Shown here: positions 2,342 to 19,057 of the stretch, piece by piece | Layout: each line of letters begins with the position of its first letter | How positions within the stretch are numbered: position 1 is the stretch's first letter | NCBI GenBank assembly: GCA_019456165.1 | Contig: VRUJ01000007.1 | Span: forward strand, 48,597 to 112,596 | From: Chloroflexota bacterium | GTDB lineage: Bacteria; Chloroflexota; Anaerolineae; Anaerolineales; UBA11579 | Length of the DNA: 64,000 nt | Direction: 5' to 3' | Made by a program: the position numbers and the translations under genes | The notes under the pieces: model-generated | Told to the model about the DNA's origin: nothing | Database searches by the model: none | Seen by the model: the letters and a program-made list of their open reading frames with translations, nothing else

Positions 2342-3430
2342 ATGATAATTGAACCTAAAATTTTCTTGATATTAAGTTTTGCAGTAGTCATCTCAAACTG
2401 TGGAATCGCGGATGGTCTTGTTGATGAGCAGAGCGATGCTTCCACGGAAAATAACCCTGAAACAAACCTGCAAACCCCCACGTTGTTGGGTGATACTGCT
2501 CCTGGGGAAACCACGCCTGGAAGCGCGACTCCAGTCCCGACTAATGCAAGGGTTGAAGATCCCAACGAATACAATTTTCCATTTTTGATACCTTTTGATG
2601 GCATTCGCCCAATCTACGATCCGGAATTCGTTAGCGCTGATCAATCCCCCTTGATCGATGAAGAATTAATTATTGGCGTTGCCTGGGGTGGAGAGGCTAA
2701 AGCGTATCCCATCACCGTCCTGCGTTTCCGTGAGATGGTGGATGATGAGCTGGCGGGTATTCCAACCCTGGTAACGTGGTGACCACTTTGCTACACCGGT
2801 CTCGTGCATGACCGGCGCATAGATGGTGAAACGCAAGTGTTTGGTAACGCGGGGGCGCTCTTCATGAATGCCATGACCTGGTATGACCACGCAACAGAAT
2901 CGATCTGGTCTCAACCTTGGGGACGTGCAATTCAGGGAGAAATGAAGGGAGTGCAATTGCACCTACTTCCCTCACAAGTTACTACTTGGGCGGCCTGGAA
3001 GACAGAACATCCGGAAACCCTGGTGATGACAAACGATGTAGATAAGGTAAGTTTTAGACAGGGGTTTAACGAAGACTTTGTTATTGGACTGCTGCTGGAT
3101 GGCTACAGTAAGGCCTATTATTATTTAGATGTGCAGGAAGTAGTTGTGGTCAATGATATGTTAGGGGATATTCCGGTTGTTATCTGGGCTGCAGATAATA
3201 ATTTTCACGCATTCGTCAGGCAGGTTGGGGATATGGTTTTAACTTTCGATCCCGTAGATGGTGGATTAAAAGATAGGGAAACGGGTACAATATGGAATGT
3301 AGCTTTGGGAATCGGGATGGCAGGATCGCTAGAAGGCGAGTTTCTCCTGCCTGTGCCCAGTACATCATCTTACGACTGGGCTTGGTTTGATTTTTATCCT
3401 GAAGCAGAATTCTATACTCCGGAAGGTTAA
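2342..3430 (+). CDS. DUF3179-family lipoprotein, predicted selenoprotein (UGA 2780-2782 read as Sec)
   Basis: ORFs 2321..2782 and 2804..3430 are in one frame, separated by one TGA inside LVTW-U-PLCYTGLVHDRRIDGETQVFGN; lipobox ISNC; SECIS-like hairpin just downstream. Confidence 0.85.
2796..2815 (+). promoter_or_regulatory. Putative bacterial SECIS hairpin
   Basis: CCGGTC-TCGTGCAT-GACCGG, starting 14 nt after UGA; loop matches that of the second DUF3179 gene. Confidence 0.65.
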
Positions 3431-3442
3431 ACCAGGAATATT

Positions 3443-4144
3443 ATGAACGATGCTGATTTGATTGCGCGCTACAACTATGATGAATTTGTCCCTGAAAAGT
3501 TTGGCCCTTGGATGAGGTTTGGGGAAAGTCCCCCGCTGGGTGAACCGGCCCCGGATTTCCACTTATGGGATTTGGAAGAAAAAGAGACATCATTAAAGGA
3601 GATCTGGTCTCAAAGCAAATATACAGTCGTCGAATTTGGCAGCTTTACTTGACCATATTGCGGGATGGCGGCGCCGTCCATGAATACAATCGCGGAGAAA
3701 TATGCCGATCAGGGGGTTGGCTCGATTTTTCTTTACACCCACGAGGCACATCCTGGTGAGATTTATCCACATCACACTTCTATGGAACAAAAACATCAAT
3801 TTGCGCGTGATTTACGAGATATCTTAGGTGTCACCCGTCCAATTTTCTTGGATGTTCTTGATGGGGTATGTCACCGCGCTTACGGCTCAATGCCTAACAT
3901 GACCTGGGTTTTCAACCGCAGCGGTATACCGGTATATAAAAGCGATTGGACGGATGTGAACAGTGTTGAACAGGCGTTAGAATATTTTATAGATGTTGCC
4001 AGGCGGCGCAGGGATGGGCAGCGCTTGGCTCCATTTCATGCAGAACGTCTGGATTACCGTGAGCAAGACCGGGAGGCATTCTACAAAGGGTTAGAGCGCA
4101 ATGGGCCAAAAGCGGTGACAGAATTTAAGGAAGCGTTTGGGTAA
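3443..4144 (+). CDS. Deiodinase-like/thioredoxin-fold protein, predicted selenoprotein (UGA 3650-3652 read as Sec)
   Basis: ORFs 3443..3652 and 3665..4144 are in one frame: VVEFGSFT-U-PYCGMAAPSMNTIAEKYADQGVGSIFLYTHEAHPGE, resembling the deiodinase GS(C/F)TUPP motif; 12 nt after the DUF3179 gene. Confidence 0.85.
3663..3681 (+). promoter_or_regulatory. Putative bacterial SECIS hairpin
   Basis: GC-rich foldable segment GGATGGCGGCGCCGTCCAT, 11-29 nt after UGA, G in the apical loop; alternative foldings exist. Confidence 0.5.
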
Positions 4145-9733: not shown

Positions 9734-10879
9734 TCAGTTTTCCAGCCCGTAAACTTCTGTCTCTGGGAACCAATCTGACCAACCGAACCAGAAGATTCCA
9801 GTGCTTTTGAGCCGGGTCAGAGTTTCACCCGCCAGTGGTCCATCGATGGCTGTTCCAGTGAGACCATCCCATGTTGAACCAGTTTGGTCATCAGTTATTG
9901 TCAAATCAGAAACGATTGAGAAAGTGAGAGTTTCGCCGTTGAGATTGCGATCGAATACAACTCCGGTACTTGTAAAATAATTGAAAACAACTAGCACGCT
10001 CGTATCGGCGATTAAGTCATTTACGATTGGTTCATCATTCAACACGCTGAAAGGATAAGCGGTGGCCTGACCATCTATTTCTACACCAATTACGAATTCT
10101 TTAACATACAATAAATTATTACGTACCGCTTCTCCAATTACGCCAGCTGAGTCGGATTCGTAATACCCAGCATAAGGATCACGAAAACCTGAGTAGCCTT
10201 TACGCAGGGCTAAGGTATCAGGATGTTGTGTTTTCCAATCCTCCCAGGTGGTTTGCCAGGAAGGTAAATATTCAAGTTCGCTGCCCGCCAAGGGGCCTTC
10301 CACGGCTCGACCAAGCAACTGACTCCATAGGGAATTAGTCTGCCGATCGTACATCACAAGGATGTTCATGATCAGTTTACCGCTAACGCCAAAAGTATAT
10401 TCTTCACCGTCAATTATTCGGGAATACACGATTCCCGTGTAGCAAAGCGGTCACCAAGTTACTGATAGTTTTACTCCGCCAACGGTATCATTTACAATTT
10501 CATGTCTGGATAACAATCCCGTAGAATAGGCCCTGGCCTCACCATTGAATACTATTCCAATGACTTGCTCATATGGGTCGTATTCCTGATCAGCTTCTTC
10601 AACTGAGTAATATTCTGGGTTATCAATCGCAGGAATCGCGTCTTGAGGCAGCAAAGTAATAATTCGATAGTTTTCAAGGGGATCCTCTACTGGGAGGGGA
10701 GTGTTGCTTGGATTAGAAGATTCTTCAGCCATTTCTTCTCCAGAAGATGATTGGGAACTCTGGTTTTGACCTTGCTGCCCTGTGGATGCTGTAGCATCGC
10801 TAGAAACCGAAGAGCAGGCAGTTAATAATAGGATGGTACCTGTGATGAGGATATATATCCGCAATTTTCGCGGGATCAT
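9734..10879 (-). CDS. DUF3179-family lipoprotein, predicted selenoprotein (UGA 10453-10451 read as Sec)
   Basis: ORFs 10451..10879 and 9734..10429 are in one frame across TGA: LSVTW-U-PLCYTGIVYSRIIDGEEYTFGV; lipobox LTAC; same UGA position as the gene at 2342. Confidence 0.86.
10419..10437 (-). promoter_or_regulatory. Putative bacterial SECIS hairpin
   Basis: CGGGAAT-CGTGT-ATTCCCG, starting 14 nt after UGA. Confidence 0.65.
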
Positions 10880-11070: not shown

Positions 11071-11268
11071 TCAACCACCCAAGCTATCGTTTTCACATGG
11101 TTCGCAAAGGTCGCAGCACTTGCTGTCATTCGGAATGGCGTAATCGTACTCAGAAAAGAAATTTTCCTTGTGATAAGAGCATACGTAAAAAGAAGCTGGC
11201 CAATTTCCCGGTCTGGAATCATCTCCCACTGAAACAATATCGTGTTCTTTCCCTGTTTTGACGTTCAT
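11071..11268 (-). CDS. Small Cys-containing protein, function unknown
   Basis: MNVKTGKEHDIVSVGDDSRPGNWPASFYVCSYHKENFFSEYDYAIPNDSKCCDLCEPCENDSLGG; metal-binding-like CCxxCxxC. Confidence 0.5.
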   Translation of the reverse strand: MNVKTGKEHDIVSVGDDSRPGNWPASFYVCSYHKENFFSEYDYAIPNDSKCCDLCEPCENDSLGG

Positions 11269-13837: not shown

Positions 13838-14373
13838 GAACTGAAATTCGATTTTCTGGTTTTGGCGGCCAGGGTGTTGTCTTGATGGGATACATCATGG
13901 GTAATGCTTTGGCGCTGCATGAGGCTTTGGAATGTGTCATGACTCAAGCATACGGCCCTGAAGCAAGGGGTGGAGCTTCCAGTTCGAATATCGTGGTCTC
14001 TAAAGAGCCAATCGATTACCCCTTCGTTCAAGAACCAGATATTTTAGTAGCGCTCTCTCAAGAAGCGTATACAAAATTCCGTCCTACAGCCAAAGACGGA
14101 GCAACAATTATTATTGATAATGGTTTGGTGGACCCTTCTGCGGAGGATAATACTCATGGAATCCCTGCAACCCAATTTGCAGAATACCTGGGGAGACGTA
14201 TTGTGACAAATGTTGTCATGATGGGGTTTGTTACCGCAGTGACTGGCATCGCAAACCGGGAATCAGTTGAGAAAGCGATTGAAGCTACAGTAAAAACAAA
14301 AACCATACCATTGAATTTGAAAGCATTTGCAGCAGGTTTTGATTATGCCCTCGAGAAGGAGCTGGCAAAATGA
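13834..14373 (+). CDS. korC: 2-oxoacid:ferredoxin oxidoreductase gamma subunit
   Basis: IRFSGFGGQGVVLMGYIMGNAL ... QAYGPEARGGASSSNIVVS. Confidence 0.92.
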   Translation: MRTEIRFSGFGGQGVVLMGYIMGNALALHEALECVMTQAYGPEARGGASSSNIVVSKEPIDYPFVQEPDILVALSQEAYTKFRPTAKDGATIIIDNGLVDPSAEDNTHGIPATQFAEYLGRRIVTNVVMMGFVTAVTGIANRESVEKAIEATVKTKTIPLNLKAFAAGFDYALEKELAK

Positions 14374-17300
14374 GCGATTCGGTAGTAGTTATCGGTGGGG
14401 GTATTGCTGGTATTCAGGCGTCTCTAGATTTAGCAGATGCGGGCGCTCGAGTGACAATCGTTGAACGCGAGGTGACCATTGGGGGCATAATGGCAGTTCT
14501 AGATAAAAATTTCCCCACGCTGGATTGTTCGATTTGTATTGAAGCTCCAAAAATGTCAGAAGTTGATTTACACCCAAATATCGAAATCCTATCTATGGCA
14601 GAGGTGGAATCGGTAACTGGAACGGCAGGTGATTTTCAGGTAACTATCCGTCAGAAAGAGCGATTTGTAACTGATGAGTGCACTCGCTGCGACCTGTGCA
14701 CCGAGGTTTGCCCGGTTGTGTTACCGAACGAATTTGACGCTGGAATGGCCACGCGCCGGGCAATTTTCACGCCCATCCCTCAATCGGCTCCAGGGGAGTA
14801 CGCCATTAATATTGATGACTGCTTAAACGACCCCCCAAATTATGTCCCTTGCAATCATTGTATTGAGATTTGTCCTCCGGACTGCATAGATTTCATGCTA
14901 CCCAGGGAAAAGACGATCACACAAGAAGCAGGGTCGGTCGTTGTTGCGGTGGGTTACGATACCATTGATCCCCAATTGATAAAGGAATATGGCTACGGGA
15001 GCCACCCAGATATATTAACTGCTCTAGAATTCGAACGCTTAGTGAATTCTGCAGGCCCGACCGAGGGGGAGATACTAAAACCATCCAATGGTGAACATCC
15101 CGAAAATATACTCTTTGTGTTGTGTGTGGGTTCACGTGACCAGCGTTACTATTCTTACTGCTCCAGGTTCTGCTGCATGTATTCTATCAAGCATGCTTAC
15201 CAGGCACTCGACCATGGCGTTGAGGATGTCACCGTAATGTATATGGATATCCGCTCATACGGTAAAGGCTTCGATGGCTTTTGGCAGCGCACACGCGATG
15301 AAAACGCGAAATTTATTCGGAGTAAACCTTCGCGCATCCAGGCGAACGGCAATGGGCGTATAAAAGTTACTTATGAGGATACTCAGAACGCTACTAGGAT
15401 GGTTGCCGATTACGATATGGTTGTCTTAGCGACGGCGGCGACTCCTTCCGATGGTTTGGCTGACTTAGCGGTTAACCTGGGGGTGGAATTAGACGAAGAC
15501 GGCTTTATCAAAACAAACGAGGTTGAAGGTGGCTTAATTGTTACCACCCGGCCTGGTATTTACGGGGCTGGGTGTGCCACGGGTCCTAAAGATATTCCAG
15601 ACAGTGTGGCTGAAGGCAGCGGGGCAGCTGCAATGGCCTTGGGGCTTCTAACTAAGCGATATTTTCCAGAGCCCCCAGATATTGAGCTGATAACAGACGT
15701 TGAAACTCCCAAAATCGGTGTCTTTGTTTGTCACTGCGGCAGCAACATCGCTGGAGTAATAGATGTCGATAAAGTGACTGAGTACGCAAAAGGCCTGCCG
15801 GGTGTTGTATTTGCCTCTAACCAATTATTTTCTTGCGCTGGCAATACTCAGAAAGAGATTGAAGATGCTATCAAAAAAGAGGGTATCAACCGTGTTGTAG
15901 TAGCAGCATGTTCGCCAAAAACCCACCAGGCGATTTTCCGAGGAGTAATGACCAGGGTTGGACTTAATCCATACTTGCTAGAAATGTCTAACATTCGCAA
16001 TATGAATTCATGGGTTCACAAAACGGACAAACAAGCGGCAACGATGAAAGCCATGGATATGGTCTGGATGAGCGTGGAAAAAGCACGCCGCTTAGTTCCA
16101 TTGGAGATTAACCAATTACCGCTCACCCAAAGCGCATTGGTGGTTGGAGGCGGAATAGCTGGAATGACTGCAGCTGCTGCACTGGCTCGCCAGGGTTTTG
16201 AGACTCATCTGGTTGAGAAGAACGACTATCTGGGTGGTATGTTAACCCAGTTAGATGATATCGCACCGGCGAGTATTAAAGCCTCTGATATTATCCAAGC
16301 GAAAACAAAAGAATTAATCCAAACTGGGGTTAAAGTTCATAAATCTACTTCTATCGAAACAATCGGTGGGGTAGTAGGTAGCTTTAATGCAAAACTGGAC
16401 AATGGTAAAGAATTAAAAATTGGGGCTATAGTTATGGCAACGGGTTCAGAGGCTTACAAGGCTGAAGAATTTAATAATTCCGAAGATCCTAAAGTCATCA
16501 CAAACTTAGAATTAGAAAAATTGCTTGAAAATGGCGACTTTGAGGCTGATACCATCACCTTTATTTCTTGCATCGGTTCTCGTCAAGGGAAAATGGGATG
16601 TTCGAGATATTGCTGCACATCCATGATTGGACAAGCTCTAAAATTACAAGAGATGGGTAAACATGTGAGAGTCGTAAGCAAAGATATACGTACATACAGC
16701 CGTCAGGCTGAAGAATTGTACGAGCAGTCGATGCGGGCTGGTGTCAAGTTCTTCCGTTACGACTCCGACCAACCGCCACAAGATGTAATCAGTGTAAAGG
16801 ATGGCAGGGTTGATGTTTATGACCAATTCTTGGGTGCCAATATTGGCTTACCGACGGATATGGTGGTTTTAGTATTAGGTTTGCAACCCAGCGTAAATGG
16901 AGTTGCCGAGCAATTGAAACTATCGAAGAGCGAAGATGGCTTCTTGATGGAACTTCATCCTAAACTTGGCCCAGCAGAGACAGCCTCCCAAGGTATTTAC
17001 TTGGCTGGATCTTCTCAAGGTGCAAAAGATGTACGAGAATCTATGGCCCAGGCAATGGCTGCGGCGGGCAAAGCAGGCGCTTTACTCTCTCGAGGGGTGA
17101 TCGAGAAAGAACCGCTAACTGCCAAATTGATCGAAGATCTATGTATCGGCTGTATGCGCTGCGTTAGGGTGTGCCCATACACTGCGATTGAACAGATCGG
17201 AGAAGTAAAAGAGGGAACCGTCCGCATTATCGAAGCGGCTTGTTTGGGATGCGGCACTTGTGCGGCAGAATGTGAGTACGATGCCATAGAAATGCCCTAT

Positions 17301-17768
17301 TTTACAAAAGATCAAATCTTATCTCAAATAGATGCAGCCTTAGCTAAAGACCCAGAAGAAAAATTCATCGTTCTGACATGCAACTGGTGTTCATATGCCG
17401 GGGCTGACCTCGCAGGGATTGAGAAACGCCAATACCCACCTTCAGCTCGAATTATCCGCACTATGTGTTCTGCGAGATATGAAATGGATTTCGTGGGTCA
17501 TGCTTACGATAAGGGAGCGGGAGCCGTACTCGTTACCGGCTGTCGTCTGACAGATACCGGCTCTGATTGCCATTACAACTACGCCAACAAGCATACCTGG
17601 AAGCGGTTTAAGTTCTGGCAGAGGAAATTCAAACGCCAAGGTATTGCGCCTGAACGTCTCCAACTGCGCTGGATATCAGCCGCAGAAGGTAAAGAATTTG
17701 CAGAAAAGATCACCGAGATGGATGGAATCGTTCAGGCATACGCCAAAGATCTAAAGGCAGAAGCTTAA
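14370..17768 (+). CDS. hdrA: Duplicated HdrA-like protein with C-terminal ferredoxin and MvhD/FlpD-like domain
   Basis: Two FAD GGGIAG motifs (VVIGGGIAGIQ, LVVGGGIAGMT); several CxxCxxCxxxCP clusters; C-term FIVLTCNWCSYAGADLAGIEKRQYPPSARIIRTMCSAR...DCHY. Confidence 0.88.
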   Translation: MSDSVVVIGGGIAGIQASLDLADAGARVTIVEREVTIGGIMAVLDKNFPTLDCSICIEAPKMSEVDLHPNIEILSMAEVESVTGTAGDFQVTIRQKERFVTDECTRCDLCTEVCPVVLPNEFDAGMATRRAIFTPIPQSAPGEYAINIDDCLNDPPNYVPCNHCIEICPPDCIDFMLPREKTITQEAGSVVVAVGYDTIDPQLIKEYGYGSHPDILTALEFERLVNSAGPTEGEILKPSNGEHPENILFVLCVGSRDQRYYSYCSRFCCMYSIKHAYQALDHGVEDVTVMYMDIRSYGKGFDGFWQRTRDENAKFIRSKPSRIQANGNGRIKVTYEDTQNATRMVADYDMVVLATAATPSDGLADLAVNLGVELDEDGFIKTNEVEGGLIVTTRPGIYGAGCATGPKDIPDSVAEGSGAAAMALGLLTKRYFPEPPDIELITDVETPKIGVFVCHCGSNIAGVIDVDKVTEYAKGLPGVVFASNQLFSCAGNTQKEIEDAIKKEGINRVVVAACSPKTHQAIFRGVMTRVGLNPYLLEMSNIRNMNSWVHKTDKQAATMKAMDMVWMSVEKARRLVPLEINQLPLTQSALVVGGGIAGMTAAAALARQGFETHLVEKNDYLGGMLTQLDDIAPASIKASDIIQAKTKELIQTGVKVHKSTSIETIGGVVGSFNAKLDNGKELKIGAIVMATGSEAYKAEEFNNSEDPKVITNLELEKLLENGDFEADTITFISCIGSRQGKMGCSRYCCTSMIGQALKLQEMGKHVRVVSKDIRTYSRQAEELYEQSMRAGVKFFRYDSDQPPQDVISVKDGRVDVYDQFLGANIGLPTDMVVLVLGLQPSVNGVAEQLKLSKSEDGFLMELHPKLGPAETASQGIYLAGSSQGAKDVRESMAQAMAAAGKAGALLSRGVIEKEPLTAKLIEDLCIGCMRCVRVCPYTAIEQIGEVKEGTVRIIEAACLGCGTCAAECEYDAIEMPYFTKDQILSQIDAALAKDPEEKFIVLTCNWCSYAGADLAGIEKRQYPPSARIIRTMCSARYEMDFVGHAYDKGAGAVLVTGCRLTDTGSDCHYNYANKHTWKRFKFWQRKFKRQGIAPERLQLRWISAAEGKEFAEKITEMDGIVQAYAKDLKAEA

Positions 17769-17829
17769 AGGTATCAAAATGAAATATTACTGGTATAAAC
17801 CTACGGAGTAGAAATCCGTGGAGGTATAA

Positions 17830-19008
17830 ATGGAACAAACGGAACAGACGACCAAAGATCAGATATACATCATTGATGATGCCAAATGGGATGAACTAAT
17901 TGAGATCACCCATGGGGCTGCCGCAGTTTGCTACCAATGTGGAGTCTGCACCGCTACCTGTCCTTGGGGTATTGTTAAGGATGAAACCGTTTCTGTGCGT
18001 AAATTCATGCGCCAGGCCCAATTGGGAATTGATAATGGCAGCGAGCAACTTTGGTTGTGCACCACCTGCGCTCAATGTGATGCATCCTGCCCACGGGGAG
18101 TTGTGATCTCCGATGTATTCCGAGGACTTAGGCAAGTTGCCTGGGATCATGGAAAACCGGAAGAAGGGCTTCCCTCTGTACTGTGGTCAGTTTTTTGGAA
18201 CCAGAATCCGTGGTCACAAGCTCCATCTCAACGATTTGCTTGGGCCAAAGACCTGGATCTGCCTAGTTTTGACCCGGAGAATCATGAAATATTATTCTAC
18301 GTGGGTTGCACAGCATCATTCGATAAGCGCGCCCAAAAAGTTTCTCGATCTCTGGTTCAAATCCTCAATGCAGCTGGTATTTCGTTTGGAGTGCTGGGTG
18401 ATGACGAACCATGTTGCGGTGAATCAGTGCTAAACGTGGGTCATAAACCATATTTTCTGGAAATCGTAGACGAAACTATGAAAGTATTTCAAGAAAGAGG
18501 CGTGACGAAATTCTTAACCGTATCCCCACACTGTTACGATGTTTTTAAAAATCATTACCCTCAAATGGATGGTTTTGAACCTGTCCACTATACCCAATAC
18601 TTAGCGGTGTTGATCGATGAAGGCAGGCTCAAATTTGAAAAGAAACTGAAGCACAAGGTTACATTCCAAGACCCGTGTTATCTGGCCCGGCATAATAACG
18701 AGTCACAGGCGCCGCGGAAAGTACTCGGCGCGATCCCCGGGATCACGCTTGAGGAAATGGAAAATAATGCATCAGACACATTGTGCTGCGGCGGTGGAGG
18801 TGGGCGAATGTTTCTGGAAACTGCTGCAGGTGAACGTTTTTCAGACCTGCGCGTTGATGATGCCCTATACACAAAAGCCGACATTCTAGTTACCGCCTGC
18901 CCAGCATGTATATCCTGCCTCGAGGATAGTGTGAAATCTAAGAAGCTGAAAGACTTTGCCGTTATGGATGTGGCTGAGTTGGGCGCGCAAGCGTTGAGAG
19001 CTAAATGA
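17830..19008 (+). CDS. HdrC-HdrB fusion-type (HdrD-like) Fe-S protein
   Basis: CYQCGVCTATCPWG, LCTTCAQCDASCPRG plus two CCG domains (GDDEPCCGE; DTLCCGGGGGRMF). Confidence 0.85.
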   Translation: MEQTEQTTKDQIYIIDDAKWDELIEITHGAAAVCYQCGVCTATCPWGIVKDETVSVRKFMRQAQLGIDNGSEQLWLCTTCAQCDASCPRGVVISDVFRGLRQVAWDHGKPEEGLPSVLWSVFWNQNPWSQAPSQRFAWAKDLDLPSFDPENHEILFYVGCTASFDKRAQKVSRSLVQILNAAGISFGVLGDDEPCCGESVLNVGHKPYFLEIVDETMKVFQERGVTKFLTVSPHCYDVFKNHYPQMDGFEPVHYTQYLAVLIDEGRLKFEKKLKHKVTFQDPCYLARHNNESQAPRKVLGAIPGITLEEMENNASDTLCCGGGGGRMFLETAAGERFSDLRVDDALYTKADILVTACPACISCLEDSVKSKKLKDFAVMDVAELGAQALRAK

Positions 19009-19057
19009 AAAACCTTAGAAATGTAAAATCAGAAGCTTTTCGGCAGGAGGCCGTTTA

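Follow-up and report, generated by a model that had tools for sequence, protein, structure and literature searches.

A predicted DUF3179 selenoprotein gene and its deiodinase-like selenoprotein neighbour in an Anaerolineae-type Chloroflexota genome

We analysed a stretch of 64,000 nucleotides (the window) from the genome of an Anaerolineae-type Chloroflexota bacterium, which is assembled into 63 contigs and 94% complete. Near its beginning lies a gene of the DUF3179 family with an in-frame TGA (gene A), which is followed on the same strand by a deiodinase-like gene that also contains an in-frame TGA (gene B). A further DUF3179 gene of this type (A2) is located on the opposite strand. The features are as follows.

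2342..3430, + strand: predicted DUF3179 selenoprotein gene (gene A), 362 amino acids with U147, TAA stop
2390..2401, + strand: lipobox ISNC after the hydrophobic signal stretch of gene A (lipidated Cys20), predicted from sequence; the Asn at -1 is non-canonical
2780..2782, + strand: UGA, predicted selenocysteine codon of gene A (U of W-U-P-L-C), in a column that holds only Cys or TGA
2796..2815, + strand: SECIS-type hairpin of gene A, CCGGUC-UCGUGCAU-GACCGG, apical loop beginning 21 nt after the UGA
3443..4144, + strand: predicted second selenoprotein gene (gene B), deiodinase / AhpC-TSA-like, 233 amino acids with U70, no signal peptide
3650..3652, + strand: UGA, predicted selenocysteine codon of gene B (U of F-T-U-P-Y-C), TGA in 46 aligned genes
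3663..3679, + strand: SECIS-type hairpin of gene B, GGAUGGC-GGC-GCCGUCC, loop beginning 19 nt after the UGA
9734..10879, - strand: predicted second DUF3179 selenoprotein gene (A2), 381 amino acids with U143, lipobox LTAC
10419..10437, - strand: SECIS-type hairpin of A2, CGGGAAU-CGUGU-AUUCCCG, from hairpin score and folding comparison
10451..10453, - strand: UGA, predicted selenocysteine codon of A2 (W-U-P-L-C), in the Cys-or-TGA column

The reading frame of gene A is open from ATG to TAA save for the single TGA, across which it translates to ...GIPTLVTW-U-PLCYTGLVHDR.... With the TGA counted as a residue, the product matches DUF3179 (PF11376) at 5e-58 and with 197.3 bits (Pfam gathering cut-off 27). 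The best stretch, residues 86-233, spans U147, which agrees with the family and the conserved protein on both sides of the TGA that had been proposed from the sequence. As was also anticipated for automatic callers, an open reading frame listing that is blind to selenocysteine (Sec) splits gene A in two at the TGA. The same happens to gene B and would happen to A2, so that three predicted selenoproteins within approximately 8.5 kb would be mis-annotated by such a caller. The gene B TGA and A2 were not listed in the original prediction. Its description of the gene A product as a lipoprotein holds only in part: a signal stretch is present and the lipoboxes of most close homologues and of A2 are canonical (LAAC/LVAC/LTAC-type), but the lipobox of gene A itself deviates by its Asn from the pattern used for the lipoprotein call ([LVI][ASTVI][GAS]C).

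Homologues of gene A, fetched from the same class for the codon comparison, continue past the UGA column. The codon in this column was TGA in 38 and TGC or TGT in 32 of 70 homologous genes and nothing else, a count from which a few other codons, representing alignments to the second repeat of the protein, were set aside. The alignment suggested as a check of the original prediction therefore yielded the expected picture. Furthermore, both columns of the UxxC/CxxC pair (C147 and C150) were invariant in 46 DUF3179 sequences, while the His of the HEIVND motif of the Cys forms is replaced by Arg in the gene A clade. Among the DUF3179 matches listed in 298 genomes of the class, exactly one internal TGA was found in 32, an internal TAA in one and an internal TAG in none. 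In comparison with four related loci (L050, L062, L113 and L115), pN/pS of gene A ranged from 0.21 to 0.31 before the TGA and from 0.26 to 0.30 after it. Judged by these ratios, purifying selection acts with equal strength before and after the codon.

SelB-GTP-Sec-tRNASec binds a SECIS hairpin and decodes UGA. The search for sel genes that had been put forward along with the original prediction recovered the whole machinery in the host genome, namely tRNA-Sec with the anticodon UCA (70.6 bits), SelA (536 bits), SelB (347 bits) and SelD (357 bits), whose gene itself contains an internal TGA. The co-occurrence of SelB with TGA-type DUF3179 genes was discarded as evidence, as it is uninformative with a SelB match in 266 of the 298 genomes of the class. 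Three genomes with TGA-type DUF3179 genes were without a listed SelB (G251, G190 and G186). G251 contains a tRNA-Sec; G190 and G186, both incomplete bins, had no tRNA-Sec match either. Other window genes that appeared to contain one TGA were also rejected as selenoproteins, since those checked proved to be genes ending at a TGA or spurious extensions.

The hairpin of gene A lies 14-33 nt downstream of the UGA. Hairpins were detected at a nearly constant site in the Sec-type DUF3179 genes, with the apical loop 21-24 nt past the UGA in most rows. The 36 Sec genes differed from the 30 Cys genes in hairpin score (Mann-Whitney p = 3e-5) and in folding z-score (p = 0.0045), although the z-scores against synonymous shuffles were modest (mean -1.05). 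In the alignment of the Sec genes, both the percentage of pairing and the covariation score were above all 500 shuffles (0/500 as high), a control that is inflated by related sequences, and above all slid registers, which keep this relatedness. The same structure on the alignment of the 30 Cys genes, which served as a separate negative control, revealed no covariation, so that covarying counterparts of the gene A hairpin are present in the 36 Sec genes and not in the Cys genes. One common structure imposed on the Sec alignment was paired to 75.8%, which is an underestimate because the helix register of the gene A clade is one base longer than that of the A2 clade and no single model fits all rows. 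For the hairpin of gene B, 96% of the cells were paired, with 25 double changes and 0/500 shuffles as high.

These observations bear on two other explanations of the internal TGA. A sequencing or assembly error would typically show itself as a single internal stop, and so would a nonsense mutation in a pseudogene. Yet 38 genes, drawn from many independent assemblies, have TGA at this same codon, two of them in the window and a third elsewhere in the genome; the internal stops are TGA rather than TAA or TAG, and selection is unchanged beyond them. We therefore consider this explanation extremely unlikely, and the read error that might have overturned the original prediction is excluded because independent genomes carry the identical TGA. 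A reading of UGA as Trp or Gly by an altered code, or ordinary suppression readthrough, could be considered since reassignment of UGA is known in other bacterial lineages. However, UGA is the ordinary stop of several other window genes, which speaks against a global reassignment, and A2 uses it both internally and as its terminator (TGA, immediately followed by TAA). The homologous residue is Cys rather than Trp or Gly, the genome encodes tRNA-Sec and SelA/B/D, and hairpins follow the TGA which are missing from the Cys genes. Altered decoding can hardly account for this combination. Since the Cys/TGA-only column, the hairpin and the Sec machinery agree, the TGA at 2780-2782 (VTW-U-PLC) very probably encodes selenocysteine, as originally predicted, and gene A would be a DUF3179 selenoprotein. 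Since Sec occupies a CxxC column that is strictly conserved, this pair is the likely redox-active site of DUF3179.

The host genome contains a third DUF3179 gene of this kind on another contig (L112, G000:C24:2551-3423) with the divergent motif VTYUVVC, and all three genes have exactly one TGA each. In a tree of 46 DUF3179 proteins, calculated without the trait column, one branch separates Sec from Cys forms. Its Cys rows were picked among the best Pfam matches, so that a single exchange is not demonstrable from this sampling, and long branches lead to a few divergent rows. The three copies of the genome fall into three separate parts of the Sec side.

Gene B starts 12 nt downstream of the stop codon of gene A and translates across its TGA to ...EFGSFT-U-PYCGMAAPS.... 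Its product shows profile matches to AhpC-TSA, Redoxin and T4_deiodinase, structure matches to the deiodinases 4tr3 (DIO3, 4e-15) and 9h48, a thioredoxin-type fold and a conserved deiodinase-type YTxEAHPGE motif. The TGA was conserved in 46 aligned genes from Chloroflexota, a Planctomycetota, a Latescibacterota, an Acidobacteriota and Deltaproteobacteria assemblies, and none of the 46 had a Cys codon in this column. Since some loci represent one genome fetched twice, the number of independent genes is at most 46. Two loci (L075 and L077) are frameshifted near the motif, and their codons CTG, GTA and GAC were left out as sense replacements. Compared to the same four loci as above, pN/pS of gene B was 0.14-0.40 before and 0.20-0.25 after the TGA. 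Some loci of Deltaproteobacteria and Syntrophobacter, L076, L078, L079 and L080, contain deiodinase-like paralogues whose motif TUPPF has Sec but lacks the second Cys, and in one L076 copy (4044) TGG (Trp) takes the place of the TGA.

Genes A and B are probably co-transcribed. The order A-B is found in the window and in L050, L061 and L062, and L113 shows the order A-A-B (four other Chloroflexota assemblies). Nevertheless, a functional link between the two genes is weak outside one clade, because most B genes do not adjoin a DUF3179 gene. Apart from gene B, no gene was found to recur widely in the neighbourhood of Sec-DUF3179 genes. The neighbours of gene B relatives at 43 loci included VTT-domain membrane proteins (11), NAD(P)H-hydrate epimerase (9), a MerA/lipoamide-dehydrogenase-type flavoenzyme (7) and glucose-6-phosphate dehydrogenase (G6PD; 6, some of them from one genome). 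This suggests an NADPH-linked reductive role of gene B. In L064 and L067, an epimerase gene is followed by the B relative, a VTT membrane protein and the flavoenzyme, and in L067 G6PD precedes this run.

Two further observations concern the rest of the window. At 14370-19026 (+), a gene for an HdrA-like flavoprotein with an FlpD/MvhD domain is followed by a CCG-domain (HdrB-like) gene, which suggests a heterodisulfide-reductase-type cluster. Genes of this type exist elsewhere in Sec form; neither of the two genes in this cluster contains an internal TGA. A small Cys-rich open reading frame (CCDLCEPC) at 11107-11268 (-) had no Pfam match.

The AlphaFold model of gene A shows a confident core (pLDDT ~97 per block). 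The protein arose by tandem duplication, its two halves matching each other at 99.8% in a profile comparison (E 3e-30), and the UxxC/CxxC pair is present in the first half of DUF3179 only. With part of the model, Foldseek retrieved Rieske ferredoxins (PF00355) as nearest structures (probability 0.97-1.00 for the best matches, E 0.03-0.1; TM ~0.6 when normalised by the length of the Rieske chain). Each modelled half resembles a Rieske domain, a metal-cluster fold. The likeness is one of fold, without a sequence relation: when the DUF3179 profile was compared to 20 Rieske proteins from relatives, the probability was below 3%, and the cluster ligands CxH...CxxH are absent from the conserved DUF3179 columns. 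A Rieske-type metal-cluster role was therefore rejected. Sequence searches returned no relative of DUF3179 with a solved structure.

Taken together, SelB-GTP-Sec-tRNASec would bind the gene A hairpin and decode the UGA, and the exported and lipidated product would be a duplicated beta-domain protein at the outer face of the cytoplasmic membrane. The UxxC pair of its first repeat may cycle between selenol/thiol and selenenylsulfide, and the second repeat, having lost the pair, may have a structural role. Gene A could hence be an extracytoplasmic selenol/thiol oxidoreductase; we give redox chemistry of this kind as its function slightly less than an even chance. Gene B would be a cytosolic thioredoxin-fold selenoprotein with UxxC, probably a peroxidase or reductive enzyme that is fed by NADPH-dependent disulfide reductases, and both proteins would probably contribute to one redox task, each on its own side of the membrane. 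It may be speculated that they form a two-selenoprotein redox relay, in which NADPH-fed cytosolic B is connected with outward, lipid-anchored A, an oxidoreductase of Rieske-like beta fold outside the thioredoxin fold, but this complete picture is quite improbable.

The selenoprotein could also be real but use its Sec-Cys pair as a ligand for a metal or metal(loid), for instance mercury or copper, instead of for thiol-disulfide exchange. A UxxC/CxxC motif in an exported protein would suit a ligand pair, MerA-like flavoenzymes are encoded at some B loci, the modelled halves recall a metal-cluster domain, and in passages of a 2026 review (PMC13188914) several Sec clusters are given roles related to heavy metals. 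On the other hand, gene B alone recurs widely beside Sec-DUF3179 genes, the Rieske ligands and a profile relation are missing, and the gene A clade has Arg where the Cys forms have the His of HEIVND. We regard metal binding as rather unlikely and keep thiol/selenol redox chemistry as the tentative reading.

The original prediction supposed that selenoprotein forms of DUF3179 may already be annotated elsewhere, which is indeed the case. DUF3179 (UxxC/T) and deiodinase-like (UxxC) selenoproteins are included in the lists given in two reviews (PMC9312934; PMC13188914), and a RefSeq plasmid record at NCBI carries the product name 'DUF3179 domain-containing (seleno)protein'. According to Table 1 of PMC9312934 and to PMC13188914, Zhang and Gladyshev were the first to list such a protein, in 2007, in the Delta symbiont of Olavius algarvensis. 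Gene A belongs to the same Pfam family, has Sec in the same kind of motif (UxxC/T) and relies on a bacterial Sec system. As far as the Olavius protein is described in the citing papers, gene A differs by its Chloroflexota host, the three distinct copies per genome and the adjoining second selenoprotein gene. No activity or function of any DUF3179 protein was found in the searched portions of the literature. Sec forms of DUF3179 are thus already published and gene A is a well-supported new example, the novelty of which is lowered by these annotations.

A bacterial deiodinase-like selenoprotein (PF00837, UxxC) was reportedly part of the Sargasso Sea selenoproteome in 2005. Gene B is likewise above the Pfam cut-off (29.9 bits, cut-off 27), contains UxxC and matches 4tr3 and 9h48. 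However, it remains far below the curated cut-off of the NCBI deiodinase family protein NF038285 (50.6 bits, cut-off 250), and activity on iodothyronines is not implied.

The DUF3179 and deiodinase-like pair is not among the operons named in the operon passages of PMC13188914, and neither this pair nor a duplicated Rieske-like beta structure without ligands was found in the literature searched. Known two-selenoprotein operons comprise grdA-grdB, prdB-prdC, Prx with a SELENOW-like gene and Prx-like with an AhpD-like gene, as given in those passages. Like these, genes A and B lie side by side in one direction, and each of the two selenoprotein genes has a SECIS hairpin of its own. The A-B operon and the structural lead are modestly new, and the function of DUF3179 may be approached from this operon, which recurs, and from the duplicated fold.
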